Shown here piece after piece: positions 665-24,603 of a stretch of DNA of 25,655 nucleotides. The position numbers and the translations under genes are program-made. Source of the DNA: a virus; the IMG/VR virus record IMGVR_UViG_3300037225_000324, positions 1-25,655 of that record. One strand, written 5' to 3'. Positions within the stretch are counted from its first letter, which is position 1, and the number at the start of each line of letters is the position of its first letter. Below the pieces are notes generated by a model. It was not told the DNA's origin. It did not search any database and was given only the letters and a program-made list of their open reading frames with translations.

Positions 665-1798
665 ATGAAACGAACTTACAAATTTAGAATATATCCCACA
701 AGGGAAACCGAAAAACAAACCAATATTGTTCTTGAACTTTGTCGTCAAATATACAATCTTTGCCTTGAACAACGTAGAGATACTTGGAAAAATTTGCAGA
801 AATCTGTTACTCGTTTTGACCAAATATATCAACTCCCTGACCTTAAAAAAGAATATCCTGAATTCACTCAAATCCCTTCGCAAACCTTGTATAATGTTGT
901 TGATAGAGTTAATCTTGCTTTTCAAGTTTTTTTTCGTAGAATTAAACAAGAGCAAAATCCAGGATACCCTCGTTTTAAAAGTTTTGGTAGATATGATTCT
1001 TTTACTCTTACACAAGCAGGATGGAAAATTCAAAGAAGTAATCTTTTTATTAAGAAAATTGGTAAATTTAAGGTTAAATTTCACCGACAAATTGAAGGAA
1101 CTATTAAAACTGTTACTATTAGTAAATCCCAATCCGGCAAATGGTTTGTTTGTTTTTCCTGTGATAATGTTTCTGAAAAGAAACTGCCAGCAATTCATAA
1201 ATCCATTGGTATTGATGTAGGTTGTGAAAGTTTTCTCACTGACAGCAATGGGTTTAAAGTAGAAAATCCAAGATTCCTTAAGCATAGTGAAGATAGATTT
1301 AAGGTTCTTCAACAGAAAATGTCTAAACAATCTTTGAAATCTAATCGCCGTAAAAAGACTAAACAGTTGATTGCAAGAGTATTTGAAAAGATTACTAATC
1401 AGCGTCTTGACTTCCATCATAAAGTTGCAAAACATTATGTGGATAATTACTATACTATTTGTCACGAAAAGATGAATGCGTTTACGAGTTTCAGAAATCT
1501 CAATAGGAGCATGAGAGATGTTGCTTGGTTTCAGTTCTTCAATATACTTCACTACAAAGCGGAAGAGGCTGGTAGAGAAGTCATTGAAGTTCCTGCCAAA
1601 GATACCTCTCAACGGTGTAGCGGTTGTGGAGAGATTGTTCCCAAATCTCTCGGTATTCGTGTTCATAACTGCCCTCACTGTCACACACTCCTTGATAGAG
1701 ACTTTAATTCTGCACTCAATATTTTACGGCTCGGTGCGAGCCGACAGGGTAAAAGCAACTCTCCAGTTGATTCACCCTGTAAAATTCTTATCTTTTGA
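665..1798 (+). CDS. tnpB: TnpB RNA-guided endonuclease
   Basis: A full-length 377-residue TnpB. TnpB proteins are omega-RNA-guided RuvC nucleases of IS200/IS605 elements, ancestors of Cas12, that cut target DNA next to a short TAM. Visible parts are the N-terminal MKRTYKFRIYPT segment, the RuvC-I motif IGIDVG with Asp about 184, the RuvC-II segment YTICHEKMNAF with Glu about 268, a CxxC...CxxC zinc finger (Cys about 318, 321, 336, 339) and the RuvC-III motif LDRDFNSALNI (Asp about 344/346). All catalytic motifs are intact, so it is probably active. It runs opposite to every other gene. The start follows GGAG with a six-base spacer. Its last codons also encode the likely omega-RNA hairpins and overlap the end of the gene at 1772-2002. 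Confidence 0.93.
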   Translation: MKRTYKFRIYPTRETEKQTNIVLELCRQIYNLCLEQRRDTWKNLQKSVTRFDQIYQLPDLKKEYPEFTQIPSQTLYNVVDRVNLAFQVFFRRIKQEQNPGYPRFKSFGRYDSFTLTQAGWKIQRSNLFIKKIGKFKVKFHRQIEGTIKTVTISKSQSGKWFVCFSCDNVSEKKLPAIHKSIGIDVGCESFLTDSNGFKVENPRFLKHSEDRFKVLQQKMSKQSLKSNRRKKTKQLIARVFEKITNQRLDFHHKVAKHYVDNYYTICHEKMNAFTSFRNLNRSMRDVAWFQFFNILHYKAEEAGREVIEVPAKDTSQRCSGCGEIVPKSLGIRVHNCPHCHTLLDRDFNSALNILRLGASRQGKSNSPVDSPCKILIF

Positions 1799-4520: not shown

Positions 4521-7500
4521 CTACATCCCCCTTCTTTCAAATTCTCTTATTACTGCTTTTTTTACAAGTCCATCAGGATGAACATTATACATATACTGCA
4601 ATAAATCTTTAGGAATCTCGTTTACCCATTTATCAAGACCCTTATCCTGTATTGTTCCACCGCCTGCCACTAACGCAGGAACAACGTATTCCTCCCATTT
4701 TTGTTCTAATTTTAAATCCGGATTTTCACGAATCTTTTTCCATACTTTGTCTTGGTCATCTATCCCACGTAATTCAGCATCATCCTTTATATACAAATCG
4801 TGATTAGGATTATTATTATTAAATAATTTTATGAATGTTACTCTTTTATCTCCATCCATATTTTCCATAAGTTCTTTAGCATATCCATATCGTATATGTT
4901 CATTCTCTTCGTTATGGTATTTTTCAAACAAATTCCCTTGAAATTTATTCAATTTATTTTTCATAAACGCATAACGATATTCGTAATTTTTCATTGCGTC
5001 ATATACTTTCGCACCGGTATCTCCACCACCCATACCCATAGCGTAAACTTTCCGCATTTGCTTGTAATTAAGATTTTCCATAAGTAATTTAGTTACTTTT
5101 TCCTCTTTTTGTTGGTCATTTAATATGCGGTCGCCTTTTATTTTTTTAAATTCGTCATAACCTTTCATGTTTTCTAAAATTTCCTTTTCAAACGATTCTC
5201 TTTTATGTTGTAAATCCATATCTCGGTATTGCGTGCCAACAGGCATTTTATCTGCTATTTCTTTTCTCAAATCATCCAATGCCGCCCTGTCTTTAACCAT
5301 TTTGAATGATAAAAAATCCTTGCTTTCAAAATTACCCATTTTGTATATATGGTCATAAAGACCTTCATTTTCCGGAATCGATTCTATTTGTTTCGTGTGA
5401 ACAGTCCCGTCTGGTGTATCACCTGATTCTTCTGACGAAGTTCCTTGAAAATTACTGCCAAAAAAATCTTTCCAGTAAGCAGAATATGTTTCTGTGATTT
5501 CTTCATATTCAGGCAATTCCTTATCAATCCCGTTTGATTCCCAACTATTAGGAATTGTTTTTCTTACCAATAATTTATCCATACGATTAAATATTATTTT
5601 AACTTGATAATCGGGATATTCTATACCGCTTTCTTTTATTGTTTTCTCGATTTTATCTTTATTTTGTTTATATAGTTTCTCAAATTTATCCAATATATCT
5701 TTCGGTATTTTTTTGCCTCTTTCCATACTAACTACAGCTGAATTATGTTGAGCATACGCAAAATTCAATCCATTATCAATTGCGTAAATCTTTCCTTTAT
5801 CGTCTCTCATAAAATTCTTTGCGTGCCTATCAGACGCACCAGTTATAAAATCAAACATAGCCAATCTAATTCTATCTCCCTTTTTCGTATTCTTTCTGAA
5901 CATATCCCAATTCCAGCCCAAATCATCAAATGTTTTAGCGTTTTGAACGAAATACTGCAAAGACGCCGGCGTTCCTATATCTTTTTTCTTTAAAAACATT
6001 TTATTAACAAAATCAGCATTTAATTTTTTTTCTACTGTTTGAGGGACAACATCGAATCCCAACAAAGTATCAATCTTATACGCAAGAATCTCTCTCAAAT
6101 ATTGTGTCTTATCTGCCACGGTTTGCCTTATGTTTTCCCCTTTGATTCGAGAATCCCTTTCCCCTACTTTTGATTTTAACATTCCTTCCCCATCACCTTT
6201 AATGGTAACTTTAACAGCCGAATTAACGCCATTTTTATAATCTTGGCTATACGAGAAATCCCTTTTCCATAAAATAGTTTCAAGCAAATTTCTGTTTTGT
6301 TTATTAAATATCTTTTCTTGCGGAATAGTTATTGGTGCTTCCATCAAATACTGTTCCTTTGAGAATTGTTCGTGTGGTGCGAGTTCCGTATCGGATATTG
6401 CACCTTTCTTTTTATACTTTTCCCAATGCTTTGCGTGCTTATCGTGAAACGCCGGCTTGTGCTTGCCTTCATCGTGTAACGGCACTTTTGAGGAAATTAT
6501 TTTGCCTTGGGTGTCCTTATAATAATAAGTGTAATCACCAGGCTGTCCCTCACGTCTCAAATACTTGTGCCCTGCTCTCATCTTGCCTTTTTGCGGTGAC
6601 GGTTTCATTCCTGACGGCATTGTCACTTTTGGTGCGGATACTTTCGGTGCTGTTGTTGATTTAGCACCGCTTGAAGGTGGTTTTCCCGTTGCGGTAACAT
6701 CCGCTTTCTCAATCTTTTCCATAAACTTATGTAAAACATATTTATTCAAAAATGCAAGTTTCTGTTTGCCGGTCTCACCATTAAACCGGCCAGTTAAACC
6801 TGTTACAGCAAAACAAAAACTTTCAACAAAATCCTCTTTTGGATTACGTTTGGCATACCACCGGACAAAATCTGTGCCTGCTTTGAATTGCCAAGGCGAT
6901 ATTAACGTAGGTGCGTCCTTTTCCCTCAAAACAAGACGCTTATACCCTTTATCCGGCTTATCTGACCCGATTTTTCCCCAACCACTTATACTTGTCCACT
7001 CTTTTTTGTCACTGAACCCGTTTGCGTCATCTATTACGTGACCTATTTCGTGGACTGCGACCTGCGTGACTTTGGATATTGAGTGCCCTTTCCCGTCCTC
7101 GTATCTTGTTTTAATATCGAATATTTCAGGATTAAGCATGATTTTCTTTTCTGCCTCAATGTATTTCCCGTGATTAGGATAAAGACGTTTGCTCTTACCC
7201 ATACGTTCATCAAGAATTATCGATTTAACATGGCCTTTTAATACTTTAGCAGGAATTTCTTTCAGGGCTTCCAATAACTGTTTGGCGGTTTTATTGTCAA
7301 AATTATCAGATAACGTTATCCCATAGGTTTTCTCGATTTCCTCAACAACGCTGTCATTCTCGGATTTCCTAATTTCCGACAAGCCAAGATTTTCAAATAT
7401 CTTTTTCTCAATATCAAATAGGGCGTCCGATACAGGCTTGAAAATCATTTCCTCGGCAAGTGCCAATGAACCAATTGAATGCGGTTGCCAGAGTTTACGC

Positions 7501-7619
7501 AGTTCTTCTTGAATCTTTTTTTTATTTTTTGCTTTTTCTAATAAAGAAAATATTTGGGGAATACTCTTAATGATTTTTTCTTTAGTAACATATTTCCCAA
7601 TTTTGAACCGTATTTTCAT
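4521..7619 (-). CDS. Polyvalent phage protein: zincin peptidase + kinase-like domain, 1032 aa
   Basis: A large multidomain protein between portal and MuF. Residues about 185-270 hold a zinc metallopeptidase signature, VHEIGHVID (His190, Glu191, His194), with a likely third ligand in EDFVESFCF (Glu266). After a Ser/Pro/Lys linker comes the GHKYLRRE...YTYYYKDTQGK motif (about 350-373) shared with other head-module proteins. Residues about 440-700 resemble a protein/lipid-kinase fold of the HipA / PI3-4K-like type: catalytic loop FITGASDRHAKNFM (Asp597, His599, Asn602), metal-binding YAIDNGLNF (Asp615), and a possible ATP lysine in AVKVTIKG. The last 330 residues are helical and unknown. Combining several effector activities next to MuF fits the polyvalent proteins thought to be injected with phage DNA. 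The peptidase call is strong; the kinase-like call is by motif. The stop is TAG. Confidence 0.85.
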   Translation of the reverse strand: MKIRFKIGKYVTKEKIIKSIPQIFSLLEKAKNKKKIQEELRKLWQPHSIGSLALAEEMIFKPVSDALFDIEKKIFENLGLSEIRKSENDSVVEEIEKTYGITLSDNFDNKTAKQLLEALKEIPAKVLKGHVKSIILDERMGKSKRLYPNHGKYIEAEKKIMLNPEIFDIKTRYEDGKGHSISKVTQVAVHEIGHVIDDANGFSDKKEWTSISGWGKIGSDKPDKGYKRLVLREKDAPTLISPWQFKAGTDFVRWYAKRNPKEDFVESFCFAVTGLTGRFNGETGKQKLAFLNKYVLHKFMEKIEKADVTATGKPPSSGAKSTTAPKVSAPKVTMPSGMKPSPQKGKMRAGHKYLRREGQPGDYTYYYKDTQGKIISSKVPLHDEGKHKPAFHDKHAKHWEKYKKKGAISDTELAPHEQFSKEQYLMEAPITIPQEKIFNKQNRNLLETILWKRDFSYSQDYKNGVNSAVKVTIKGDGEGMLKSKVGERDSRIKGENIRQTVADKTQYLREILAYKIDTLLGFDVVPQTVEKKLNADFVNKMFLKKKDIGTPASLQYFVQNAKTFDDLGWNWDMFRKNTKKGDRIRLAMFDFITGASDRHAKNFMRDDKGKIYAIDNGLNFAYAQHNSAVVSMERGKKIPKDILDKFEKLYKQNKDKIEKTIKESGIEYPDYQVKIIFNRMDKLLVRKTIPNSWESNGIDKELPEYEEITETYSAYWKDFFGSNFQGTSSEESGDTPDGTVHTKQIESIPENEGLYDHIYKMGNFESKDFLSFKMVKDRAALDDLRKEIADKMPVGTQYRDMDLQHKRESFEKEILENMKGYDEFKKIKGDRILNDQQKEEKVTKLLMENLNYKQMRKVYAMGMGGGDTGAKVYDAMKNYEYRYAFMKNKLNKFQGNLFEKYHNEENEHIRYGYAKELMENMDGDKRVTFIKLFNNNNPNHDLYIKDDAELRGIDDQDKVWKKIRENPDLKLEQKWEEYVVPALVAGGGTIQDKGLDKWVNEIPKDLLQYMYNVHPDGLVKKAVIREFERRGM

Positions 7620-7642: not shown

Positions 7643-7724
7643 AAATGGCAGGGAACAAAAAAAATAGGGGTTTCCAACCTCACCATATTTTTTTTAATGA
7701 ACATCATACTGTTCCCTGCCATTT
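7643..7724 (-). other. Long stem-loop between HNH gene and the 1032-aa gene
   Basis: AAATGGCAGGGAACA (7643-7657) is repeated exactly in inverted orientation at 7710-7724, where it encodes the last codons of the HNH gene. Inside, an A8/T8 pair and a small GGTT-GGA-AACC hairpin allow further pairing. On the minus strand the inner hairpin is followed by eight T, so it may act as a terminator or attenuator for the gene at 7619, or the stem may hide that gene's weak ribosome site. Confidence 0.55.
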
Positions 7725-8341
7725 AATTTCTTTAATCTTTTATGTTCTTCTTTATGACAATCCTCACAATAAACTTCACCATTTTCTACGTCCCACATAG
7801 GAGTATATTGCATTGCACCTTCATATAAATCCAATAAGGGAAAATTATATTTAATCTCTTCTAATAATATGGAAAAGAGTTTTTTGTGATGAACGTGTAA
7901 TTTACCGCCCTTATTATGGCAGGATTTACAAGTAAAATCTTTTTTTATACGAACTTCTTGTTTCCATTGTTTATATCTTATTGAATTACGAATTGCTATT
8001 GTTATTGGAGTCCTTCCATCTTTATAATTGGGACTTTTCTCGCCGAAACGGTGTATCCCATACATAGGATGGTTTTTGCCTTTTTGATTTTCTAAATTAC
8101 ATTTTTGACACAATTTCGGTTCATAATTTTTTACTTTACGAGTGCTTAATAATTTTCCGCAATTTATACATTTAGGCAAACCACCTTTCCAATGAAAACT
8201 ATTTATACCTTTTAAGTGGGGTCTTTTTTTGGTTTCGCAAGAACGACATCTTTTAGACCTGTAATTCGTTAATTGTTTTCCACATCCAATACATTTAGGA
8301 AAGCCACCTTTCCAATTTCCGTGTTTATTGCCTTTTTCCAT
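7694..8341 (-). CDS. HNH endonuclease with zinc-ribbon modules (between portal and 1032-aa gene)
   Basis: A 215-residue homing-type HNH nuclease. The N-terminal half has two zinc-ribbon modules (CIGCGKQL...RCRSC and CINCGKLL...LCQKC) joined by NUMOD3-like GxNSFHWKGG / GEKSPNYKDG segments, expected to bind DNA. The nuclease domain follows, with CKSC, LHVHHKK and VYCEDCHKEEH. It is free-standing between the portal and the 1032-residue gene and does not disrupt either. It is closely related to the protein at 10487-11200. The ATG at 8341 follows GAGGG. The last codons form one arm of a long inverted repeat with sequence beyond the gene. Confidence 0.88.
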   Translation of the reverse strand: MEKGNKHGNWKGGFPKCIGCGKQLTNYRSKRCRSCETKKRPHLKGINSFHWKGGLPKCINCGKLLSTRKVKNYEPKLCQKCNLENQKGKNHPMYGIHRFGEKSPNYKDGRTPITIAIRNSIRYKQWKQEVRIKKDFTCKSCHNKGGKLHVHHKKLFSILLEEIKYNFPLLDLYEGAMQYTPMWDVENGEVYCEDCHKEEHKRLKKLNGREQYDVH

Positions 8342-8383: not shown

Positions 8384-10378
8384 TTAATTGATTTCTACTA
8401 AAACCTCTTCGCCCTCGCTGTCAATTTCAACGACTTCTATCCCATCATCAAGAATTCCGCCCTGCGATTTATGGACAGAATTGACGCCCAAGTGTTCCTT
8501 TTCACGTCTTTTTGCGAGCCGTTCCTTTTCGTTCTCTCTGGCCTCTGCGTATTCAGGGCTGGATTTGTCTTTCCCACGCCTTGTCCTGAACGGCATATCA
8601 ACCCCGTAATCCTCTGCTTTTCCCTCATTAGGAATAACCGGTTTCTGTTCAACGCCTTCAGGTGCAGGAATAGCCGGCTGTGTGCCCTGTTGAGGCGTTC
8701 CAGCGTTTTTACCCCCACCTTGAGGTGCAGGCGACCCCCCTGCCGGTTTAGACTGTTGTCCACCCTCTGCACCTTGTTCAGCCGGAGGCTGTTCTGCCTG
8801 CTGTTCAGCCTCTCTTTCCTGCTGTTCTTTCGCATCGGCTCGTTCTTGGTCTTTTAGGAATACCTGTGCCAAAACTGCGTGTGCCGGTGCGTCCGCCCAA
8901 GCCTGGTTAATCCTTGGCATATCCTCTAACGCCCTTGCCTCGTTTACAGTCATAAGTCCAGCCTGTATTTTCTTGGATGTAATGTCAATTTTGTCTGCTT
9001 CGGGCATTGCGTCCGCACCAACCCACTCAAAATAAAGGTCAGTATATAATCTCTGGACAATGTGCTTATTGATTAAATGCTGATAGAATTTCATTAACGG
9101 CCACAGCCCTTTATCTTTGCTGAAATCCAGTTTAACCTTGCCCGAATGTTCCATCAAAGGTGCACTGCCTCCACCCTTGATTAAATATCCTACTTCACTT
9201 GGGTCAATGCAGAATATCGCACAAGCAGTCTGGATAAGATATTCTATCCATAAATGAAATTCCATATCTTTATTATTTTGTTTAAATGGCACGAAATTCA
9301 CGCCACCGCCCTTTTCGTCAATTGCCATTACCGGCACACGCCACGCATTTGCTACGCCGGAAACCTGTGCTATCCATGCACGCTTGAACGCTTCCATTGC
9401 TTCCGGTGTGTATTTACCGGCAATATTAAGGACACCCTGCGGTATTGCGTTTTGCGTAAAATATTTCATGTTATACTGCTCGCCAAACAGAATAGCCGTC
9501 ACGGTTTCCATAAGGATTTCTAATGGCGAAAGACCATATCCGAATATATCCATGTCCGTTCTCGGATTCATTACATCATAAACCATTTCATCACGATTGT
9601 ATTGAGCAACTACTCTGCCGTGTATCAGTTCCTGAACATATTTTACCGGCAACCCATTTGTGTAACTCAATGGCTTGACTTTCTGTTTGCCAGTAACAGG
9701 ATTAAATTCAACTTCTTCAGATGCGAACTTGATTGTTGCGGCATCAATTGGCCATACCGCAAACGGCTTGCCGTTCACCCTACGCTGTATCTCAAAACAG
9801 GTAGCGTCAAGAGTCAAAGTGTCCCTGACAAGTTTACGCATGAACATATCGAAATTATCCTGACGGTCAATCCCTTTATATAAATCCTGCTTCGTGTTTG
9901 GCAAACCCGTATTGAGAATGAATTCCTGCAATTCATCAATACGCCGTCTTTCACTTTCAGATGGAACTTTATGAGGGTCTTTGGTGGTTATCCTGAACCC
10001 AATATCACCTGGCTTGCGTGTCAACTGTGTGAATGACGCTATCTGGTTTTGCCGAACTTGGATTATTGCGGCAACTGGCTTACAGGAAATTGCCATACGA
10101 CGAAGAATCTGATACGTGCAACGTGAAGGTTTTGTCCTGCTCCCCAAAAAATCCGGCAAATTCCAAGCATCAATCATCACAGACTTAATTGCCGAATGTT
10201 TTATACCGGATTTTTCAAGCTCGGTGCTTTGTAAATTTACAGCCTCTCTTTCAATAGCCTCAATTTCAGATTTTGTTAATCGTCTATTCGGATGTTCCAT
10301 AGATAAAGAAACACCATCGGGCACTATTCCCGGCTCATTCATTTCAGAAATTTCGCTTTGCTTATATCTGCGTGCCAT
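8384..10378 (-). CDS. Portal protein
   Basis: A 664-residue portal protein, forming the dodecameric DNA gate at one head vertex and binding terminase and head-completion proteins. Supporting features are the length, the position between terminase and MuF, and conserved stretches: ISCKPVAAIIQVRQNQIASF near the N-terminus, MNPRTDMDIFGYGLSPLE in the middle, and CIDPSEVGYL followed by LWPLMKFYQHLINKHIVQRL and the GLMTVNEAR.LEDMPRI segment typical of portal stems and wings. The last about 150 residues are a Gln/Glu/Pro/Gly-rich, low-complexity tail ending in acidic sequence. AGAGGGG lies upstream of the ATG at 10378, inside the end of a small membrane-protein gene. Confidence 0.9.
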   Translation of the reverse strand: MARRYKQSEISEMNEPGIVPDGVSLSMEHPNRRLTKSEIEAIEREAVNLQSTELEKSGIKHSAIKSVMIDAWNLPDFLGSRTKPSRCTYQILRRMAISCKPVAAIIQVRQNQIASFTQLTRKPGDIGFRITTKDPHKVPSESERRRIDELQEFILNTGLPNTKQDLYKGIDRQDNFDMFMRKLVRDTLTLDATCFEIQRRVNGKPFAVWPIDAATIKFASEEVEFNPVTGKQKVKPLSYTNGLPVKYVQELIHGRVVAQYNRDEMVYDVMNPRTDMDIFGYGLSPLEILMETVTAILFGEQYNMKYFTQNAIPQGVLNIAGKYTPEAMEAFKRAWIAQVSGVANAWRVPVMAIDEKGGGVNFVPFKQNNKDMEFHLWIEYLIQTACAIFCIDPSEVGYLIKGGGSAPLMEHSGKVKLDFSKDKGLWPLMKFYQHLINKHIVQRLYTDLYFEWVGADAMPEADKIDITSKKIQAGLMTVNEARALEDMPRINQAWADAPAHAVLAQVFLKDQERADAKEQQEREAEQQAEQPPAEQGAEGGQQSKPAGGSPAPQGGGKNAGTPQQGTQPAIPAPEGVEQKPVIPNEGKAEDYGVDMPFRTRRGKDKSSPEYAEARENEKERLAKRREKEHLGVNSVHKSQGGILDDGIEVVEIDSEGEEVLVEIN

Positions 10379-10380
10379 TT

Positions 10381-10500
10381 TTATTTACCCCTCTTATTAG
10401 CAGAATGAAAATATACAAATATTTCACTCATTCCAAAAGAAAAAGCACAACATCCTAAAACAAATCCTAAAACCAAATATACGCTGTTAATGCTTGCCAC
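10381..10500 (-). CDS. Tiny single-pass membrane protein, 39 aa
   Basis: GTG at 10500 follows AAGGAG with eight bases between. The peptide has one membrane-spanning stretch (VYLVLGFVLGCCAFSFGM), then EIFVYFHSANKRGK, suggesting a cytoplasmic basic tail. The ribosome site lies inside the last codons of the HNH gene, and the gene ends two bases before the portal start. It may be a native gene displaced by HNH insertion. Function is unknown; small phage membrane peptides include holin-like and superinfection-exclusion proteins, but nothing here decides. Confidence 0.6.
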   Translation of the reverse strand: MASINSVYLVLGFVLGCCAFSFGMSEIFVYFHSANKRGK

Positions 10501-11200
10501 TTTGATAACTCCTTTTTTTGTGTCTCTTCTCGTGACAATTCTCACATAAAGTTACACCATTATCTATATTCCAAAGAGGAACATACAACATTGACGCTTC
10601 ATATAATGATAACAATAGCATATAATTTTTCGCCTCTTCCAACAAAACTATAAAGGGTTTTTTATGATGCACCCTTAAATTTCCACCTGTATTATCATTA
10701 CAATCTTGACAAGTAAAATTATCCCTGACATACACCATTTGTCTCCATATTTTATATTTAACACTATTTCTTATAGTATCATAAATAGATTTTATTAAAC
10801 ATTCCGGATTTTGCCTTTTGAATAACCCATAACATTTTTTACATAATTTATATTTATTTTTATAATGCGATAATTGTTTCCCACATTTTTCACATTTAGG
10901 TAAACCATTTTTATAATTTGGACTATTAGAACCTCGTTTTGCTTTTTCTTTCATTAACAGAATACTTTCTGATTTGTGATGCTTACCTAATCCTCCCAAT
11001 CCTATATTTTTCTTATGTTTTTCTGATAATTTTTTATTTCTTTTAGCCAAATTAGCACATTCCACCGAATGATATTTTCCCCTGCCTTTTTTAATTACAG
11101 ATGGTTTTACTTGAAAACTTATTCCACAATATTTGCAAATAACATTTACCTTATGTCCATTTTTATCTTTCATTTTTCTTTTGATACCCTTCTCCCTCAT
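10487..11200 (-). CDS. HNH endonuclease with zinc-ribbon module (upstream of portal)
   Basis: A homing-type HNH nuclease, up to 237 residues. The N-terminus has a CKYCG...VECAN knuckle pair of the kind that precedes NUMOD3-like motifs (SEKHKKNIG), then NYKNGLPKCEKCGKQL...LCKKCYG, and the nuclease domain with FTCQDC, LRVHHKKPF and VTLCENCHEKRHKK. The C-terminal domain is clearly paralogous to that at 7694-8341. ATG at 11200 lacks an obvious ribosome site; ATG at 11173 (MKDKNGHKVN) is an equally good start. It overlaps the 85-residue gene before it, and its last codons encode the AAGGAG used by the small membrane gene. Confidence 0.87.
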   Translation of the reverse strand: MREKGIKRKMKDKNGHKVNVICKYCGISFQVKPSVIKKGRGKYHSVECANLAKRNKKLSEKHKKNIGLGGLGKHHKSESILLMKEKAKRGSNSPNYKNGLPKCEKCGKQLSHYKNKYKLCKKCYGLFKRQNPECLIKSIYDTIRNSVKYKIWRQMVYVRDNFTCQDCNDNTGGNLRVHHKKPFIVLLEEAKNYMLLLSLYEASMLYVPLWNIDNGVTLCENCHEKRHKKRSYQSGKH

Positions 11201-13605: not shown

Positions 13606-13884
13606 TTATTTTGTTCTCATAACTAATTGCCCTTTACCATCCAATATAAAATCGTAACCGCCGAACTTTGCTAATTTTTCTTCAACTTCAACAATTTTTC
13701 CATTAACAAACAGAAAAATATTGCCTCCCTCTAAAATCCATTCAACCCTATCTTCCGGCAAAACATTTCGCACCTTGCAATTTAATACTGTCGTGAATGA
13801 AAGAACCAAATTTCCCTCGGTATCCCTGCCCATCTGCGAAGGGATTACCTTTATGTCACGAGAAAAGGCTGTCGGCTCGTTCAT
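13606..13884 (-). CDS. Hypothetical protein, 92 aa
   Basis: It begins MNEPTAFSRDIKVIPSQM and looks beta-rich, with short strands and a hydrophobic core (EWILEGGNIFLFVNGKIVEV). No family is recognised. The start at 13884 is supported by AAGGAG seven bases upstream and by an ATGA overlap with the stop of the HNH gene; the frame is open further up only with a TTG. Before the HNH insertion it would have followed the terminase gene directly. Confidence 0.75.
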   Translation of the reverse strand: MNEPTAFSRDIKVIPSQMGRDTEGNLVLSFTTVLNCKVRNVLPEDRVEWILEGGNIFLFVNGKIVEVEEKLAKFGGYDFILDGKGQLVMRTK

Positions 13885-14861
13885 ACCAAGACTCCTTGTT
13901 TTTCCAATAATTCCTTGAAATATGTTTCCCAATGCTTTCTGTTTTTCTTTGTTTTGCTATGGCATCTATTACACAAAGGAATCAAATTTTTAGGGTCATT
14001 GTTTTTCTTATTAGAATCAATATGGTGAACATCTAACGCTTGATTACATTCAATTTCCGGAACTCCACATAATTGACAAATACGATTATGCCTATTTCTA
14101 ATGGATTCTTTTAATGCGTTATTGAATTCCAATGGATATGGTTCACGACTTTTACCATCAACATAATTGGAATTATTTTTACCAGTATTATTTTTACTTT
14201 GCTCTATCGCATAACATCCATAACATAATTCACTTCCATAACTTTTTAATTGCGTCCCACATCCTTTGCATTTTGGTTTTCCTTTTTTATAATTTGGATT
14301 TTTTTCTCCTCTTATTCCATACATAGGATTATTTTTACCTGTATTCCATTTAACGTAACAATCCCAACATCTTTTAGTTTTACAATATTTAGCCAATTCA
14401 TTTAGCGGTTTTCCACAATCCACACAATATCTTTTATTTTTCTTTTTCCATCCACCCTTAAAATTAGGATTCTTTTCCCCGCTTAAATCAGGACGTTTTT
14501 TACCTTTAATACTTTCTACCCAACATTTTTTACATAATTTAGTGCCATAATTTCTCAATGGTTTTTCACAATTTTGACAATTAGGTTTACTCTTAAAATC
14601 AGGATTATTTTTACTTTTCTCCCATTTGATATAACAATCCCAACACCTTTCGGCATTATAATCACTTAATAGTTTACCACAATCAATACATTTATTTTTT
14701 CCATCTTTATAATTAGGACTATCTTTGCCAGTATGTGATTTCCCATAACATTCTATACATAATTTAGTTTTATAATGACGTAATATCTTTCCACACTTTT
14801 GGCATTTGGATTTTCCATGTTTATAATTAGGATTATTTTTCCCTACCATATTTTTTTTCAT
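13881..14861 (-). CDS. HNH endonuclease with five zinc-ribbon modules
   Basis: A 326-residue homing-type nuclease between terminase and the next head gene. About residues 10-235 hold five repeats of roughly 36-45 residues, each with a CxxCGK.L...CxxCY zinc ribbon, separated by NPNYK.GK / NNPMYGI segments like NUMOD3. Examples are KCQKCGKIL...LCIECYG and KCKGCGTQL...LCYGCY. The C-terminal HNH domain has ICQLCGVP, ALDVHHIDSNKKNND and LIPLCNRCHSKTKK, a different subtype from the other two zinc-ribbon HNH genes here. The start overlaps the terminase stop (ATGA), and its stop overlaps the next start (ATGA). Confidence 0.9.
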   Translation of the reverse strand: MKKNMVGKNNPNYKHGKSKCQKCGKILRHYKTKLCIECYGKSHTGKDSPNYKDGKNKCIDCGKLLSDYNAERCWDCYIKWEKSKNNPDFKSKPNCQNCEKPLRNYGTKLCKKCWVESIKGKKRPDLSGEKNPNFKGGWKKKNKRYCVDCGKPLNELAKYCKTKRCWDCYVKWNTGKNNPMYGIRGEKNPNYKKGKPKCKGCGTQLKSYGSELCYGCYAIEQSKNNTGKNNSNYVDGKSREPYPLEFNNALKESIRNRHNRICQLCGVPEIECNQALDVHHIDSNKKNNDPKNLIPLCNRCHSKTKKNRKHWETYFKELLEKQGVLV

Positions 14862-16846
14862 ACAAGCACTCCCGAATCAATCATCAGACTTTTACATGAA
14901 TGCTTTTTTTGACAGTTAAAACACTTCTCGTTTTCCTGATATTTTTCCCCATAGCATTCCCCATTAGTAAGTATAGTCCCCTTAACCGTGCTTCTTGCTA
15001 ATATTCCAGTTAAGTCTCCATAGCCAGGAACATCCGGCAAGGTTATGGAAACTTTACGTTTCTGTTTTATCGCATCCTCAATCTCTCGTCCACCATCCCA
15101 GAATTCTGACTTTGGCATTGTGCTAATTTTACCAAAACCCGTGACTGCATAATTAAGAGAATGTGCAAAATGGTCTTGTCCCATCGAAGCGATGAATTCT
15201 CCCACCTCTCCTGTTTTCTCATCAATGTCTTTTACAGACACGCAATTACATAAATGTTTTATAAATGTTTGAAGTAAAACTATATCAATCCCACGAGGTA
15301 AAATTATTTCGTGACTACGAAAATATGATAATGTCAATTTAAGAGAGTTTGTTCGGTCGATGGAAACCTTTCCTTGTTCATCTTGAAATGATGGTTCGAA
15401 AATCTTACTTCCTCTTTCCACGGAAGGATACCAGCAGGAATACACTTTTTCAGGAAACATTTTTAGCAATTTGGAATTTCGGTCACGACCATAGCCTGCG
15501 TCGCATACAACAATATCTGCATCGTAATTTTCTATGATTCTTTTTACGGATTCAACGTGTTCATCTGGGTCATTGGCAGTAATCTTTTCAAGACCAACTA
15601 TTAAAATTTTACCTTTATACGAAGTAACTATAGTTACCCAAGAAGTATCTCCCCAGTCAACCCCGACAGCAACACGCCCATAGAAGGATTCGCTCACGGG
15701 CATAAATAAATGACCATTATCTGTTATACAACTGATTATCTGCCCTTCGGTCACAAGTATATTGTCACCCAAATAGGGTATTCCTAAACAGTAATTAAAG
15801 AAGAGTTGTTTGAATGGGTAGTCCTCTTGTTTCTGCCAAAGAATTTGTGCCGAAATCCACGGAGCATCTAATTGTGAAATTTGATAGAAAGAATTTCCTT
15901 CTGTTGGAAATTTCGCAACCCATTCGCCCTGCCACCTGTCCTCGACTCTTAATTCTTTATCACAATATTTACACACGTAAATATGAATTCCTAATTTATT
16001 TACTGATATTGAAGTTTTGCCTGCAACATCCTCATCCGGTAAAAACGACATTGTTTGAGATTTCCCACAATGAGAACACTTAATAAACCAGTGATATTGT
16101 TTGGACTTATTCCATCCTACATCAACCCCGAAATTAGGGACAGTAGGCGTGGATATATCACGTATCCAACCCCACTTCGACGACTGCAAACTTTCCTCAA
16201 ATGCTATTTTAATACGGGGGTTCATACGGTCAAGTTCATCGAAGAAAGTGCAGTCTGTATCGATACCTTCACCCAACCGTTCCAACTGGCCTGACCGCAG
16301 GAACATAAATGAGTCACGGATTTGTTTCAAGTTTACGTTTTGTATTTGACCTTTCAAGGACAGTAAATATTTACTTTCGTCAATAGCAGGTGCAACACGT
16401 GTATTTGAAAAGTCCTGAACCTGCCTGCCGGACGGCAACGTATAGCAGACCTTTGAATGGTTGTTGGTATCAAGAAACCATAGGGCTTCTGTAACGCAAA
16501 TCTCGGAAACCCCAACCTGCCTGCATTTCCTAAATCCTTTATATGGACTGTTATCTTCAAGTGGTTGAATTAGGAATGGACGTTTTTGAACAAGACTTTC
16601 CCCATCGAACACATAAGGTTTACCTTTAAGTGTCCGATTATTGATAGACCATACGTAGGACGACATATTTGACATTGTTTTTACTACGGTTGCCTCGTCT
16701 ATATCAAGTTTGTCTTTTTCGATAACAGTAGTAGAATTATTGCCAATTTTAGGTGAACAGACCTCGGCAGTTTCGTAATCCTTGGCGATTACCTCGTCAA
16801 AGTTTGTCAGTTCCTGACATATCGCTTTCTGTTTTATTTTTCTCAT
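14858..16846 (-). CDS. terL: Terminase large subunit (GpA-like)
   Basis: A 662-residue DNA-packaging ATPase/nuclease that drives DNA into the prohead and cuts concatemers. The ATPase has a deviant Walker A, FRKCRQVGVSE (about 105-115), and Walker B DCTFFDELDRM (about 198-208). A zinc ribbon follows (Cys 257, 260, 292, 295), as in lambda gpA-type terminases. The nuclease domain has VGVDWGDTSW (Asp about 397), IVVCDAGYGRDRN (Asp about 449) and MGQDHFAHSLNYA (Asp about 558). The C-terminus carries an extra Cys cluster (CFNCQKKHSCKSL). The start follows AAGGATT and overlaps the previous gene by about 50 bases; the end overlaps the HNH gene as ATGA. Confidence 0.92.
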   Translation of the reverse strand: MRKIKQKAICQELTNFDEVIAKDYETAEVCSPKIGNNSTTVIEKDKLDIDEATVVKTMSNMSSYVWSINNRTLKGKPYVFDGESLVQKRPFLIQPLEDNSPYKGFRKCRQVGVSEICVTEALWFLDTNNHSKVCYTLPSGRQVQDFSNTRVAPAIDESKYLLSLKGQIQNVNLKQIRDSFMFLRSGQLERLGEGIDTDCTFFDELDRMNPRIKIAFEESLQSSKWGWIRDISTPTVPNFGVDVGWNKSKQYHWFIKCSHCGKSQTMSFLPDEDVAGKTSISVNKLGIHIYVCKYCDKELRVEDRWQGEWVAKFPTEGNSFYQISQLDAPWISAQILWQKQEDYPFKQLFFNYCLGIPYLGDNILVTEGQIISCITDNGHLFMPVSESFYGRVAVGVDWGDTSWVTIVTSYKGKILIVGLEKITANDPDEHVESVKRIIENYDADIVVCDAGYGRDRNSKLLKMFPEKVYSCWYPSVERGSKIFEPSFQDEQGKVSIDRTNSLKLTLSYFRSHEIILPRGIDIVLLQTFIKHLCNCVSVKDIDEKTGEVGEFIASMGQDHFAHSLNYAVTGFGKISTMPKSEFWDGGREIEDAIKQKRKVSITLPDVPGYGDLTGILARSTVKGTILTNGECYGEKYQENEKCFNCQKKHSCKSLMIDSGVLV

Positions 16847-17744: not shown

Positions 17745-17764
17745 TTTATCCCCCTTATAAATAA

Positions 17765-17823
17765 AACACCAGTTCGGAACATCCGACAGCCGAAAGACCG
17801 TCGGACGTCCGAATTGTGGTGTT
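17765..17823 (-). terminator. Large hairpin between two structural genes
   Basis: Three nested stems pair across a 12-base loop: AACACCA with TGGTGTT (17765-17771/17817-17823), TTCGGA with TCCGAA (17773-17778/17808-17813) and TCCGAC with GTCGGA (17782-17787/17800-17805). On the minus strand it is followed by TTTTATTT, so it can act as a partial terminator that lowers transcription of terL and the head genes relative to the structural genes before it. Confidence 0.6.
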
Positions 17824-17828
17824 CTATT

Positions 17829-18734: not shown

Positions 18735-18765
18735 TCTTAATTCACCCCCTTATGATTTATGAAAC

Positions 18766-18785
18766 TTATCCACAACTTTTCCACA
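18766..18785 (-). promoter_or_regulatory. DnaA-box-like pair in the late leader
   Basis: TTATCCACA (18766-18774) is an exact DnaA-box consensus and TTTTCCACA (18777-18785) differs by one base. CTTACTAACA follows, matching the repeat unit in the leader at 519-540. Both lie in the transcribed leader of the late promoter. Confidence 0.4.
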
Positions 18786-18804
18786 ACTTACTAACATATC
18801 TTAC

Positions 18805-18840
18805 CCTGATTATACCACAAGATATTGTATTGTCAAGTCT
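18805..18840 (-). promoter_or_regulatory. Late-operon promoter with internal near-palindrome (copy 2)
   Basis: TTGACA (18836-18831), a 16-base spacer and TATAAT (18814-18809) are exact consensus boxes. The spacer has ACAATATCTTGT, a palindrome with one mismatched pair. The block is nearly identical to that at 560-595, so both are probably controlled by the same regulator. It drives the gene at 18734 and probably the whole packaging/head operon. Confidence 0.75.
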
Positions 18841-18848
18841 TTTTACAA

Positions 18849-18884
18849 TAAAAAAGCCGTTCAGGGAATTATCCCCAAACGGCT
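18849..18884 (-). terminator. Rho-independent terminator of the early region
   Basis: On the minus strand AGCCGTT...AACGGCT, with an inner GGGGATAATTCCC pairing, is followed by TTTTTT. It lies 24 bases after the phosphatase gene and directly before the late promoter, so it separates the two transcription units. Confidence 0.82.
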
Positions 18885-18907
18885 AATATATTATAATATA
18901 TTATACT

Positions 18908-19643: not shown

Positions 19644-19672
19644 ATTATAACATATTATACTATATTTGTCAA
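19644..19672 (-). promoter_or_regulatory. Promoter of the phosphatase gene
   Basis: TTGACA (19672-19667), 17 bases and TATAAT (19649-19644) are exact consensus boxes on the minus strand, with the phosphatase ATG 20 bases beyond. Confidence 0.82.
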
Positions 19673-19688
19673 GTAAAAAAACAACTAT

Positions 19689-20093
19689 TTAAGCAGTCTT
19701 TGGGGCGGATTTGGACTGTTCGTAAGCCTGTCTCTGTTTCTCAAGAATCAGTTTTTTGTTCTTTTTATAATAACTGCGACCATACTTCTTAATATATTCT
19801 CTGTTATTTATATAATTCTCATGCTTTTTCCCTTTTAATACACTCTTATTCTTTAAGTAATATTCTTGTTGAAACTTTTTTATCTTGTTTTTGTCACGTT
19901 CACGCCATGCCTTGTATTTATCCGGATTATTTTTATAAAATGACTGACGATAATCCTTAAAATATTCCCTATGTTCAGCGTAATATTTCTTGGAATGTGC
20001 ATTCAAATATTTTTTATGGACAGCATAATATTTCAGAAAATATGCTTTCCTGTATGCTTTCATATCGTCTGTCTTTTTAATTTTCTTTGTCAT
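19689..20093 (-). CDS. Lys/Tyr-rich repeat protein related to HNH N-terminal regions
   Basis: A 134-residue very basic protein made of short repeats around K-x-Y-x-K-x-Y-Y-x-x-N/H (AYRKAYFLKYY, YLNAHSKKYYAEHREYF, EYIKKYGRSYYKKNKK). Such repeats are found N-terminal to HNH domains in phage endonucleases, where they are thought to bind DNA, but no HNH motif is present here. It may be a truncated homing endonuclease or a stand-alone nucleic-acid-binding protein. ATG at 20093 follows AAAGGG; the upstream TTG is unlikely. It comes directly after a structured noncoding region. Confidence 0.7.
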   Translation of the reverse strand: MTKKIKKTDDMKAYRKAYFLKYYAVHKKYLNAHSKKYYAEHREYFKDYRQSFYKNNPDKYKAWRERDKNKIKKFQQEYYLKNKSVLKGKKHENYINNREYIKKYGRSYYKKNKKLILEKQRQAYEQSKSAPKTA

Positions 20094-20112
20094 AGTTTCC
20101 CTTTTTATTTGC

Positions 20113-20236
20113 AAGACACGGCGAATTCACCCATCCGCCGGTGGAATGACCCACCTATTGTCCTATAGGCTTTTACGTGTCTTATTTAATCGCAGGGTCG
20201 TTTTCACGGACAGACCTTCAAAGTGCTGTCCAACCC
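20113..20236 (-). ncRNA. Candidate structured RNA in the leader of the Lys/Tyr-rich gene
   Basis: Two compact domains are seen on the minus strand. The 5' one (20236-20195) is closed by GGGT/ACCC and holds GGACAG...CTGTCC with an inner ACTT-TGA-AGGT stem, then CGT-GAAA-ACG with a GNRA tetraloop. The 3' one (20183-20113) is closed by AAGACAC/GTGTCTT and holds CCTAT/ATAGG, GGTGG/CCACC and GGCGG/TCGCC hairpins. The density of stems and the tetraloop argue for a folded RNA (riboswitch, leader or mobile-element RNA). It does not match tRNA rules, and no known class is claimed. Confidence 0.5.
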
Positions 20237-20247
20237 ACGAATAAATA

Positions 20248-20727
20248 TTATTTTTTATTCTTTTCTTTCTCTTTCAAATAATAATCGCAATAATCAAGAT
20301 TGCTCTTAATTTTTGCCTTACAGTCATCTGTTGCGTCGGCAAGTAAAGAAGCCTGTTCAAGCAATACCTTTGCTTTTTCTAAATCAACAGTGCTATCTTT
20401 CTTATGTGCCTTTATATACATAAATCCTGCGTCGTTAAGCATCCAAGCCTGAATATCTAATCGGCCAAGACCAAACGCCTGTTTTTCTGCTTTAAGAAAT
20501 TCCTCAACTGCTTCCAGTAACTTTCCTTCCGCTTCCAATTTCCAAGCGGCGTCACGGTGTAGTTTAAAACCATCCCAAGAAATTTCCTCTTTGGCAACAG
20601 GTGCAACAACAGCAGGTGCTTTCACGTCAGCCTTTGGTGCAGGTGCTATGGCTTTATCACCGGCATTAACGGCAACCGCCAAAAAAATCATACCTACCCA
20701 AATCATAATTACTTTTTTCCAATCCAT
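20248..20727 (-). CDS. Exported or membrane-anchored helical-repeat protein
   Basis: A 159-residue protein with an N-terminal signal or anchor (MDWKKVIMIWVGMIFLAVAV then NAGDK), an Ala/Pro/Val-rich linker (about 26-50) and a TPR-like helical part (AWKLEAEGKLLEAVEEFLKA; QAWMLNDAGFMYIKAHKK; KAKVLLEQASLLAD). ATG at 20727 is chosen because GGGGGTGA is well spaced from it; an in-frame ATG at 20757 would place that site inside the gene. It could act at the cell envelope during infection. It follows a small membrane-protein gene. Confidence 0.78.
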   Translation of the reverse strand: MDWKKVIMIWVGMIFLAVAVNAGDKAIAPAPKADVKAPAVVAPVAKEEISWDGFKLHRDAAWKLEAEGKLLEAVEEFLKAEKQAFGLGRLDIQAWMLNDAGFMYIKAHKKDSTVDLEKAKVLLEQASLLADATDDCKAKIKSNLDYCDYYLKEKEKNKK

Positions 20728-20749
20728 TTCGTTTTCACCCCCTTTTCTT

Positions 20750-20866
20750 TTAACCATTTTTCTTACTATCTCTCCTTATTATCCAAGCAACAATGCTTAT
20801 CACCAATAATAGCAAAACTATTTTTATCGGCACAAAATTATTATGAATATATGTTTTTATGTCCAT
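20750..20866 (-). CDS. Tiny single-pass membrane protein, 38 aa
   Basis: ATG at 20866 begins MDIKTYIHNNFVPIK and continues into a clear membrane helix, IVLLLLVISIVAWII, with a basic RRDSKK tail. It overlaps the end of the nucleotidyltransferase gene and ends just before the ribosome site of the exported-protein gene, so it fits the operon. The ribosome site is weak. Function is unknown. Confidence 0.55.
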   Translation of the reverse strand: MDIKTYIHNNFVPIKIVLLLLVISIVAWIIRRDSKKNG

Positions 20867-21357
20867 GAACCAGTTCTCACTTCGGGTTCTACCCAGGGTA
20901 ACTGTAATGTCCTAAAAATATCAATTTCTTCCTTTATGTTTGACAATGGTTCGGGCGGAAATTCATCATCACCTGTATTTGGGGATAACCTACAAAGTCG
21001 GGCATTCTTACTACAGAATCCCTTTGTTCTAATAAAACACATAAAACTGTGAATCCACTCTGCCGAGCCGGTTCTGATTAAGAAATTCATGGCATAAGTT
21101 TCTGGTGTGCATAAAAACAGGTCTATTTTTTCGCCCTCATAATTAAACATCCAATACTTATCTTTGCCTTTAATGAGTTTGATATTGTTGTCTTGACGCC
21201 ATTTTTCAAGAGTCCAAAAAGGAACAACCACTAATTCGATGTCGTGAGGGTCAACCTTTTTACGTCTCACTCCACCAGCGATTTCCACCCGTGAACAATA
21301 CGGTTTTATTTCGCCAATCAATTTATTCGTTATTGTCAATGCCTGATTATAGTTCAT
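20857..21357 (-). CDS. Minimal PolX-like nucleotidyltransferase
   Basis: A 166-residue protein matching the palm and C-terminal end of family X DNA polymerases (pol beta fold). It has the phosphate-binding VEIAGGVRRKK, the metal-binding pair DPHDIELVV (Asp39, Glu41), the third acidic residue in EGEKIDLFL (Asp79) and FLIRTGSAEWIH. The end, EEIDIFRTLQLPWVEPEVR, corresponds to the EEEIF..LGL.YI.PE.R end of PolX proteins. Usual PolX proteins are over 300 residues; the 8-kDa and fingers helix-hairpin-helix domains are missing. It may add nucleotides to DNA or RNA ends or to a protein. ATG at 21357 overlaps the previous stop (ATGA). Confidence 0.82.
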   Translation of the reverse strand: MNYNQALTITNKLIGEIKPYCSRVEIAGGVRRKKVDPHDIELVVVPFWTLEKWRQDNNIKLIKGKDKYWMFNYEGEKIDLFLCTPETYAMNFLIRTGSAEWIHSFMCFIRTKGFCSKNARLCRLSPNTGDDEFPPEPLSNIKEEIDIFRTLQLPWVEPEVRTGSWT

Positions 21358-21578: not shown

Positions 21579-21607
21579 ATTATACCATAGATTTTACTTT
21601 TTGTCAA
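21579..21607 (-). promoter_or_regulatory. Consensus promoter before the Cys-rich gene
   Basis: TTGACA (21607-21602), 17 bases and TATAAT (21584-21579) on the minus strand. The ATG is at 21569, so the expected transcription start falls within about five bases of the start codon. Confidence 0.82.
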
Positions 21608-22808: not shown

Positions 22809-23046
22809 TTTTCCTCCTTGATTTATTCTTTTGTATATGCCAACAATTCTTATTGTCGGGTTCATACCCTTCGTGGTCACATTTCGGGGTGCACAAGACC
22901 TTGTATCCGGCCTCACAACCCTCACACCCATCAGAATCGCAAGGCATTAAATCCGACAATTAACAAGCACATTCACCGAAATCATTAAACAACCCACTAT
23001 ATCCGTGTTTCCCCAACCAATCTTTAACTATTTCCTTGACTGTCAT
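22783..23046 (-). pseudogene. Cysteine-rich phage protein interrupted by TAA
   Basis: From ATG at 23046 the frame reads MTVKEIVKDWLGKHGYSGLF then NDFGECAC, a TAA (22962-22960), and continues in the same frame with LSDLMPCDSDGCEGCEAGYK for 58 more codons to the TAA at 22785-22783. Start, GEC.C..L.DL.PC core and CE.GYK segment belong together in a familiar small phage protein family, so one codon has become TAA (GAA to TAA is the simplest change). The start overlaps the methyltransferase stop (ATGA). Either the gene is broken or only the 28-residue N-terminal part is made; restart at the internal ATG is possible. Confidence 0.7.
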
Positions 23047-23389
23047 TTTTCCTCACTCTCCTTTTCATAAAATAAATCCGTTTCGTAAAATTTTTCTGTT
23101 TCATCAACTTCTATTTCATTAAATAATTCCGGCTGATAAACAGTTCGTCTTATTCTCCTTTCCGCCATAATAATATATTTAGGATTAAGTTCTATTCCGA
23201 TATAATTCCGGCCAAGTGATTTAGCGACGGCAAGTGTCGTTCCCGAACCCGCAAAAATATCCATTACAATCCCGTCTTTCGGACACCCTGCCTTAATACA
23301 TAATGTCGGCAACTTCGGCGGGAACGTGGCAAAATGCGCTTCTCTATATGGCTTTGTGGTGATTGTCCATACGGACCGGCGGTTACGCA

Positions 23390-23983
23390 TTAAATATTGT
23401 TTATCTGGTTTTCCTTCTGCACGGAGTTTATGGAAAGTATTCGGCTCTTGTCCGTCGGATTGTAGATTTTTATACTGTTTCCCTTCCTTGAATTGCAACT
23501 CCGGCATAATGCCTGTATGTTCGTTGCTGTATGTTGGCCGTTCTTTGTCAATGGAATTATATGGTCTCTCGTTAAGGGTCTCTTTTTTTTGCATATTGCA
23601 CAAAGATAATTCTGCCCTTTTTTTATCTTTCCCCATTGTTCGGACGTTAGGTCGCAAATTGTTAATTCTATCATCGCCCTTCTTTTGTGACACCCACGTA
23701 ATAAACTTTCCCTTCCCTTCGGAGTCATTTGATATTTCTTTAACGTCTTGCGAAACTTTTTGCTTTTGGAATATTTGTCCATTACCTTTTTTCTTTTGCC
23801 CGATTTCTTGTAATTCTCCACATATTTCTTTATGTAATTCTGCCCTGTTTCTGTTGCAAGCCATCGCTTGCGGATTTTCGCCATCTTCTCCGACCTGCTG
23901 TAAGCCAATCGCTTCGCTCTCCCGTGAGGACTGTGATTGTATTTCATCTGTGCTTTTCTCAAAGAGTTCTTCATATTCTCCAT
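23390..23983 (-). CDS. HNH endonuclease nested within the methyltransferase gene
   Basis: In a different minus-strand frame inside the methyltransferase gene is a full HNH protein of 197 residues (or 194 from the second ATG). The N-terminal half has short basic DNA-binding repeats (YNHSPHGRAKRLAYSRSEKM; KYQMTPKGRESLLRG). The C-terminal half has YLCAICKKKRPLTRDHIIPL, then NIQALCRSCNSRKGN, a complete HNH with two CxxC knuckles. Its own consensus promoter is directly upstream. The methyltransferase frame through this region is atypical Glu/Gln/Ser-rich sequence, so HNH is the true coding frame here and has been inserted without closing the host frame. Confidence 0.85.
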   Translation of the reverse strand: MENMKNSLRKAQMKYNHSPHGRAKRLAYSRSEKMAKIRKRWLATETGQNYIKKYVENYKKSGKRKKVMDKYSKSKKFRKTLKKYQMTPKGRESLLRGCHKRRAMIELTICDLTSEQWGKIKKGQNYLCAICKKKRPLTRDHIIPLTKNGQHTATNIQALCRSCNSRKGNSIKIYNPTDKSRILSINSVQKENQINNI

Positions 23984-24010
23984 TATACTCGCTTATCGCC
24001 TCATTGTCAA
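23982..24010 (-). promoter_or_regulatory. Promoter inside the methyltransferase gene driving the HNH gene
   Basis: TTGACA (24010-24005), 17 bases and TATAAT (23987-23982) are exact consensus boxes. The last bases of TATAAT overlap the first HNH ATG (23983), so the transcript would begin near the ATG at 23974 and could be leaderless. Confidence 0.72.
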
Positions 24011-24603
24011 CTGCTTTTTCTTGAATTGCGAAACTGTCATAGTAATATCTCGCACTTTTTGTCAGCAAAAATATATATTCGTGACTCTTGGTGCATCTAT
24101 CCGTCACGCTTTCCGGCATTGGGTTCGGCTTCGCCCACACAATGTCTTGACGAAGATACCAACCATCGGCTCTTAAAGCAAATGCAACAGACCAGGGGAT
24201 ACCACAAAGGTCTTTAGTTTTAATTATAGGGTGTGGTGCATCCTTTGTCATATTACGACCATCCAAAGTTCCTTTGTTCGTTTCTTGCTTTGTCCCTTCC
24301 AAATTTGTATTACTTCCTTTCCATCCTCCCCCATAATAAGAATCACCAAGATTAAGCCAACAAGTCCCCTCTGGTTTCATCACTCTCTTGACTTCCCTGA
24401 ATAGATCCACTAACTTTGATACATATTCCTCTGGCGTTTTCTCTAACCCTAATTGCCCGTCAACACCATAATCCCGTAAACCCCACTAATAAGGCGGAGA
24501 AGTTACTATGCAGTCTACAAAGTCATTAGGCATCTTGCATAGAACCTCCAAGGCATCACCTTGGTGGATTCTATTTATCCATTCCGTCATAAATATCACC
24601 TCC

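Follow-up and report, generated by a model that had tools for sequence, protein, structure and literature searches.

The window analyzed here, 25,655 bases long, is an entire IMG/VR virus record, and almost every gene in it lies on the minus strand. The terminase (positions 14858 to 16846) and the portal protein (8384 to 10378) were recognized by both Pfam and PHROGs, and their closest GenBank matches come from SPO1-like Herelleviridae, with approximately 35 to 37% identity. The closest relatives in IMG/VR are a 97-kb contig, L008, with a terminase that is 65% identical, and L009, with a terminase that is 51% identical. Terminase scans gave one distant relative each in viral contigs and in genome contigs; a later scan gave 40 loci, among which only L008 and L009 were close, and one further scan from a tighter alignment added no close member.

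Three HNH-type genes with zinc-ribbon-like repeats (7694 to 8341, 10487 to 11200, and 13881 to 14861, minus strand) lie between the late genes for terminase, portal, and head, which suggests repeated invasion by homing endonucleases. An open reading frame (ORF) for a 197-amino-acid (aa) HNH endonuclease (23390 to 23983, minus strand; Pfam HNH_5, E = 2.5e-12) is located out of frame inside that of a 455-aa DNA methyltransferase (23043 to 24410, minus strand). The middle of the methyltransferase (residues 168 to 342) comprises approximately 174 aa here versus approximately 40 aa in phiAH14a and is mostly missing in the phage relatives, so that the HNH gene seems to lie in the methyltransferase gene with both frames open. 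An IS605-type TnpB/OrfB gene (665 to 1798, plus strand) is on the strand opposite to nearly all other genes. A 1,032-aa protein of the virion region (4521 to 7619, minus strand) matches PI3/PI4 kinases weakly, though above the cut-off (E = 5.5e-7, residues 538 to 627), and is also weakly M91 peptidase-like, possibly being a multidomain head or injected protein. A 166-aa protein (20857 to 21357, minus strand) has a weak, below-cut-off match to the DNA polymerase beta thumb (E = 5e-5) and is a possible nucleotidyltransferase.

The spacer and its flanking genes

The earlier note on this DNA described a gap of 154 bases between two genes, and such a gap was found at 20094 to 20247, between two minus-strand ORFs. 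The upstream gene (20248 to 20757) encodes a 169-aa protein with an N-terminal signal-like or hydrophobic segment and a helical repeat-like region, without any Pfam family above the cut-off. Its homologue in L008 (9209 to 9652; 30% identity, E = 1e-10) overlaps the next gene by 4 nucleotides (nt), stop to start (9652/9649), with no spacer after it, and the genes surrounding the upstream gene in the window are in a different order from those in L008. The downstream gene (19689 to 20093) encodes a basic 134-aa protein rich in Lys and Tyr (33 K, 8 R, and 19 Y) with a pI of 10 and a charge of about +28. A relationship of this protein to the DNA-binding parts of HNH proteins had been proposed and is borne out by tblastn matches to proteins that carry an HNH endonuclease annotation in Roseobacter phage CRP-603 (37% identity over 71%, E = 6e-4) and in Bacillus phage 015DV004 (37% over 60%, E = 8e-3), the likeness being to the basic region of these phage proteins. 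The protein has neither an HNH nor a RuvC domain and no Pfam or NCBIfam domain; residues 66 to 127 weakly match phrog_17714 (E = 2.9e-4), a 129-position profile of unknown function that has no known association with RNA. The two closest HNH-like relatives, in CRP-603 and 015DV004, do not have a comparable leader, as one has a spacer of 83 nt and the other gene overlaps its neighbor. The two ORFs that flank the spacer are separate and apparently complete genes, and the neighbors are not visibly split.

The transcription unit to which the spacer belongs has a probable promoter at 21607 to 21579 (minus strand; TTGACA-17-TATAAT with TG, a 12/12 consensus match), and a second perfect match at 19672 to 19644 would serve the next gene. 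Together with one at 18836 to 18809, these make three perfect sigma-70 matches in 3 kb on the minus strand (TTGACA-16/17-TATAAT, each with TG), and a similar promoter was seen by eye within 433 to 664. Inside the spacer (20094 to 20247), no site scored above 9/12 in a scan for sigma-70-type promoters, and no intrinsic terminator consisting of a GC-rich hairpin and a U-tract was present there.

Predicted fold of the spacer

The minus strand of the spacer folds with a minimum free energy (MFE) of -50.9 kcal/mol (z = -3.93; 0 of 200 shuffles as good), and a larger shuffle set for the entire 154 nt gave z = -3.65, with 0 of 700 shuffles as good. The first 136 nt, which leave out the tail with the ribosome-binding site, score better (z = -4.41; 0 of 700 shuffles). 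The interval given in the earlier note, 20113 to 20236, scores only -2.83 (3 of 700 shuffles) because its ends cut the outer A/U stem of the first domain. The plus strand folds less well (z = -2.8; 7 of 700 shuffles), so that the coding strand is the better folder. The spacer has a GC content of 45%, compared to approximately 26 to 33% in several neighboring spacers. It is unlikely to be a decayed coding sequence, since stop codons are present in all three minus-strand frames.

The proposal of a compact multistem RNA holds, in that two closed domains are found in both the MFE and the centroid structures, most of the stem pairs having p > 0.85, and both are retained when the spacer is folded with 60 nt of flanking sequence on one side and 53 nt on the other (a 267-nt fold). 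Domain 1 (20183 to 20247), which was also delimited by pair probabilities, is a stepped stem formed by 20247-20242/20188-20183, 20240-20232/20199-20190, and 20231-20226/20213-20208, with an apical helix at 20224-20221/20217-20214. The three-way junction with a CGU-GAAA-ACG hairpin that had been drawn here is possible only in part. The GNRA-type mini-hairpin (20199 to 20208) that would create it is a minority conformation, its GU-GAAA-AC form occupying approximately 38% of the predicted ensemble (two pairs at p of approximately 0.38), and the third pair, C20208-G20199, has a strong competitor in G20231-C20208 (p = 0.96) and is excluded whenever the 20231-20226/20213-20208 stem is complete. Domain 2 (20114 to 20182; pair probabilities of 0.77 to 0.99) has a closing stem, 20182-20177/20119-20114, that encloses two strong hairpins, 20155-20150/20145-20140 and 20139-20133/20126-20120. 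It is thus closed, as had been described, but the third of its three supposed hairpins, CCUAU-AGGACA-AUAGG (20154 to 20169; pairing 20169-20165/20158-20154), is an alternative of which the MFE structure leaves just a 2-bp stub. Because it shares G20155 and G20154 with the strong GGUGGG hairpin (20155 to 20140), the two are never both complete.

Downstream of domain 2 is an unpaired tail (20094 to 20113) carrying the Shine-Dalgarno sequence AAGGG (20103 to 20099) of the 134-aa gene, 10 nt past the base of the domain. This sequence is open in the 154-nt fold and largely open, outside the domains, in the 267-nt fold.

Comparison with other spacers and searches for relatives

The structure had been considered far beyond what other AT-rich spacers show, and this is not the case. 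Among 94 same-strand spacers of 100 to 260 nt from this virus and related loci (mean z of -1.64), 13 reach a z of -3.4 or lower, and the present spacer is fourth, a ranking that is approximate because a simple ORF rule was used to call the reference genes and terminator likeness was judged by eye. Most of the 13 resemble terminator hairpins by this comparison, and approximately 5% of all 140-nt minus-strand segments score below -3. Structured spacers in the same window include 17745 to 17828 (z = -8.1), 18735 to 18907 (z = -3.9), and 433 to 664 (z = -2.7), which are structured largely through terminator-like hairpins; the very strong long hairpin at 17745 to 17828 (minus strand; z of about -8) is a probable terminator or other structural element. 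Compared to most of the strong folders, the spacer at 20094 to 20247 is multistemmed, richer in GC, and without a terminator U-tract.

The spacer and the Lys/Tyr-rich gene were undetectable in the records of both L008 and L009, while the phosphatase that adjoins them in the window has a homologue elsewhere in the L008 record. Scans of viral contigs with both flanking proteins gave no matches, and a profile of the upstream protein matched the L008 record again and nothing else. With gathering and relaxed thresholds, Rfam gave only chance-level hits (Bacteroid-trp at E = 3.1; DUF3800-XI at 11.6 bits versus a gathering score of 37.8); HEARO/omega RNA and group I and II introns did not match the spacer even at an E value of 5 to 10, and searches for tRNA or tmRNA found none. 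BLAST of the spacer DNA against phages and plasmids returned short chance pieces only, and a six-frame IMG/VR scan seeded with the spacer as pseudo-peptides had no matches. The pattern TCCGTGAAAACGACCC occurs in 12 IMG/VR contigs, but the flanks are unlike the spacer beyond the 16-mer and look coding, several of them reading FRENDP. A single-sequence covariance model, applied to 688 kb of loci as well as six complete virus records, found the window itself only. Since such a model and exact patterns reach close relatives only, the failure to find the spacer elsewhere does not prove its absence. As a candidate target-site duplication, the 8-nt direct repeat AATAAAAA flanks the spacer on both sides, but 12% of shuffles do as well, and we regard it as chance.

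Discussion

Our results suggest, with slightly less than even confidence, that the spacer acts in cis as a structured part of a polycistronic phage mRNA and lies next to an HNH-like gene that was acquired. The basis for this is in silico and consists of the fold and its strand, the lack of a promoter and a terminator, a ribosome-binding site that stays open, and a nearest relative that has neither the spacer nor the gene. Transcription would run from the probable promoter at 21607 to 21579 through the 169-aa gene into the Lys/Tyr-rich gene, and the two folded domains would close off the upstream cistron at its 3' end or mark a boundary for processing or stability. They may also uncouple the translation of the upstream gene from that of the HNH-like gene, for which the ribosome-binding site stays open. 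The Lys/Tyr-rich gene, perhaps together with the spacer, would have been gained in the lineage of the window; the distribution of the two among the compared sequences fits such an acquisition, with loss in the other lineages as a second possibility.

Structured RNAs are found upstream of the phage homing-endonuclease genes I-TevI, segB, and mobE, and in Aeromonas phage 25, a predicted stable hairpin precedes seg43(25) and leaves its ribosome-binding site uncovered (PMC2988022). With a predicted stable structure immediately ahead of an HNH-like gene, the spacer would resemble these leaders if it is transcribed together with that gene, and it is like seg43(25) in having its ribosome-binding site past the base of the stem. 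It differs from the single hairpin of seg43(25) in being two multibranched domains of about 65 to 70 nt each, and it differs from homing-endonuclease leaders in general in that the downstream protein has no recognizable nuclease domain. The AAGGG sequence is located past the closing stem of domain 2 and remains outside the folded domains with longer flanks, and classical sequestration as for I-TevI and mobE therefore does not apply. Unlike in the T4/Aeh1-type leaders, the spacer does not sequester the ribosome-binding site, and the sigma-70-type scan found no internal late promoter.

Several points speak against a cis-acting element. The fold is known from one sequence, and with no homologue found, neither covariation nor selection for the pairing is evident. 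Such a spacer is missing from the nearest HNH-like relatives, and folding energy alone is weak evidence when 13 of 94 comparable spacers reach a z of -3.4 or lower. With the ribosome-binding site uncovered, a regulatory effect is not obvious. It is also plausible that there is no functional RNA here at all, a reading that comes close behind that of a cis-acting element: the spacer would be GC-rich acquired or rearranged DNA that folds well by accident, or a decayed hairpin sequence. The frequency of segments below a z of -3 on the minus strand, the number of strongly folding spacers among the kin, the lack of a relative in the collections searched, and the rearranged gene order near the upstream gene relative to L008 all agree with this. 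It accounts less well for the failure of all 700 shuffles to match the full spacer, for the two neatly closed domains that fill the noncoding stretch up to the ribosome-binding site, and for the better folding of the coding strand. Since strongly folding intergenic stretches are not unusual among related phages and no relative of this one was found, it most likely serves ordinary control or spacing, or has no function.

Group I introns carrying HNH genes are known from SPO1-like phages, and the setting here is similar, with an HNH-like protein near a folded RNA in a relative of the SPO1-type Herelleviridae. The 134-aa protein looks like an HNH protein minus its nuclease domain, and further HNH genes occur at several places in the window, as might be expected if the spacer were what is left of a bigger mobile RNA, for instance a group I intron or omega RNA, that once had a full HNH gene and has since been reduced to a short RNA. 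We consider this unlikely, as no intron or HEARO family matched at an E value up to 5 to 10, no host gene is interrupted, and the flanking repeat is at chance level. There is also a likeness to the HEARO/omega RNA of IscB, in which a structured RNA likewise precedes an HNH-related gene in a mobile context, but no target or transposon end was identified here. The earlier note had suggested an RNA-protein pair or mobile ribonucleoprotein because the RNA precedes a protein related to HNH proteins. A discrete noncoding RNA partnering the 134-aa protein, as a mobile ribonucleoprotein or an RNA chaperone pair, would agree with the adjacency of spacer and gene, their joint absence from the nearest relatives, and the strongly basic nature of the protein. 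The suggestion is nevertheless unsupported and, in our view, improbable: neither HEARO nor any other Rfam family matches, the protein is devoid of RuvC and HNH domains, the closest HNH-like homologues are without an RNA-sized spacer, and the spacer has no promoter of its own above 9/12. More improbable still is its most specific form, in which a stand-alone HNH-derived Lys/Tyr-repeat protein binds, and moves together with, an orphan two-domain phage RNA of approximately 135 nt, the pair being a minimal ribonucleoprotein without a nuclease domain of its own.

If the spacer RNA is nonfunctional, it illustrates that folding energy alone fails to single out functional RNAs in phage spacers, since one in seven comparable spacers has a z of -3.4 or lower and many of these look like terminators. 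If it does function as a cis-acting segment of the mRNA, it would be one more RNA structure beside HNH-like mobile genes in phage mRNAs, and one of the little-studied kind that leaves the ribosome-binding site open.
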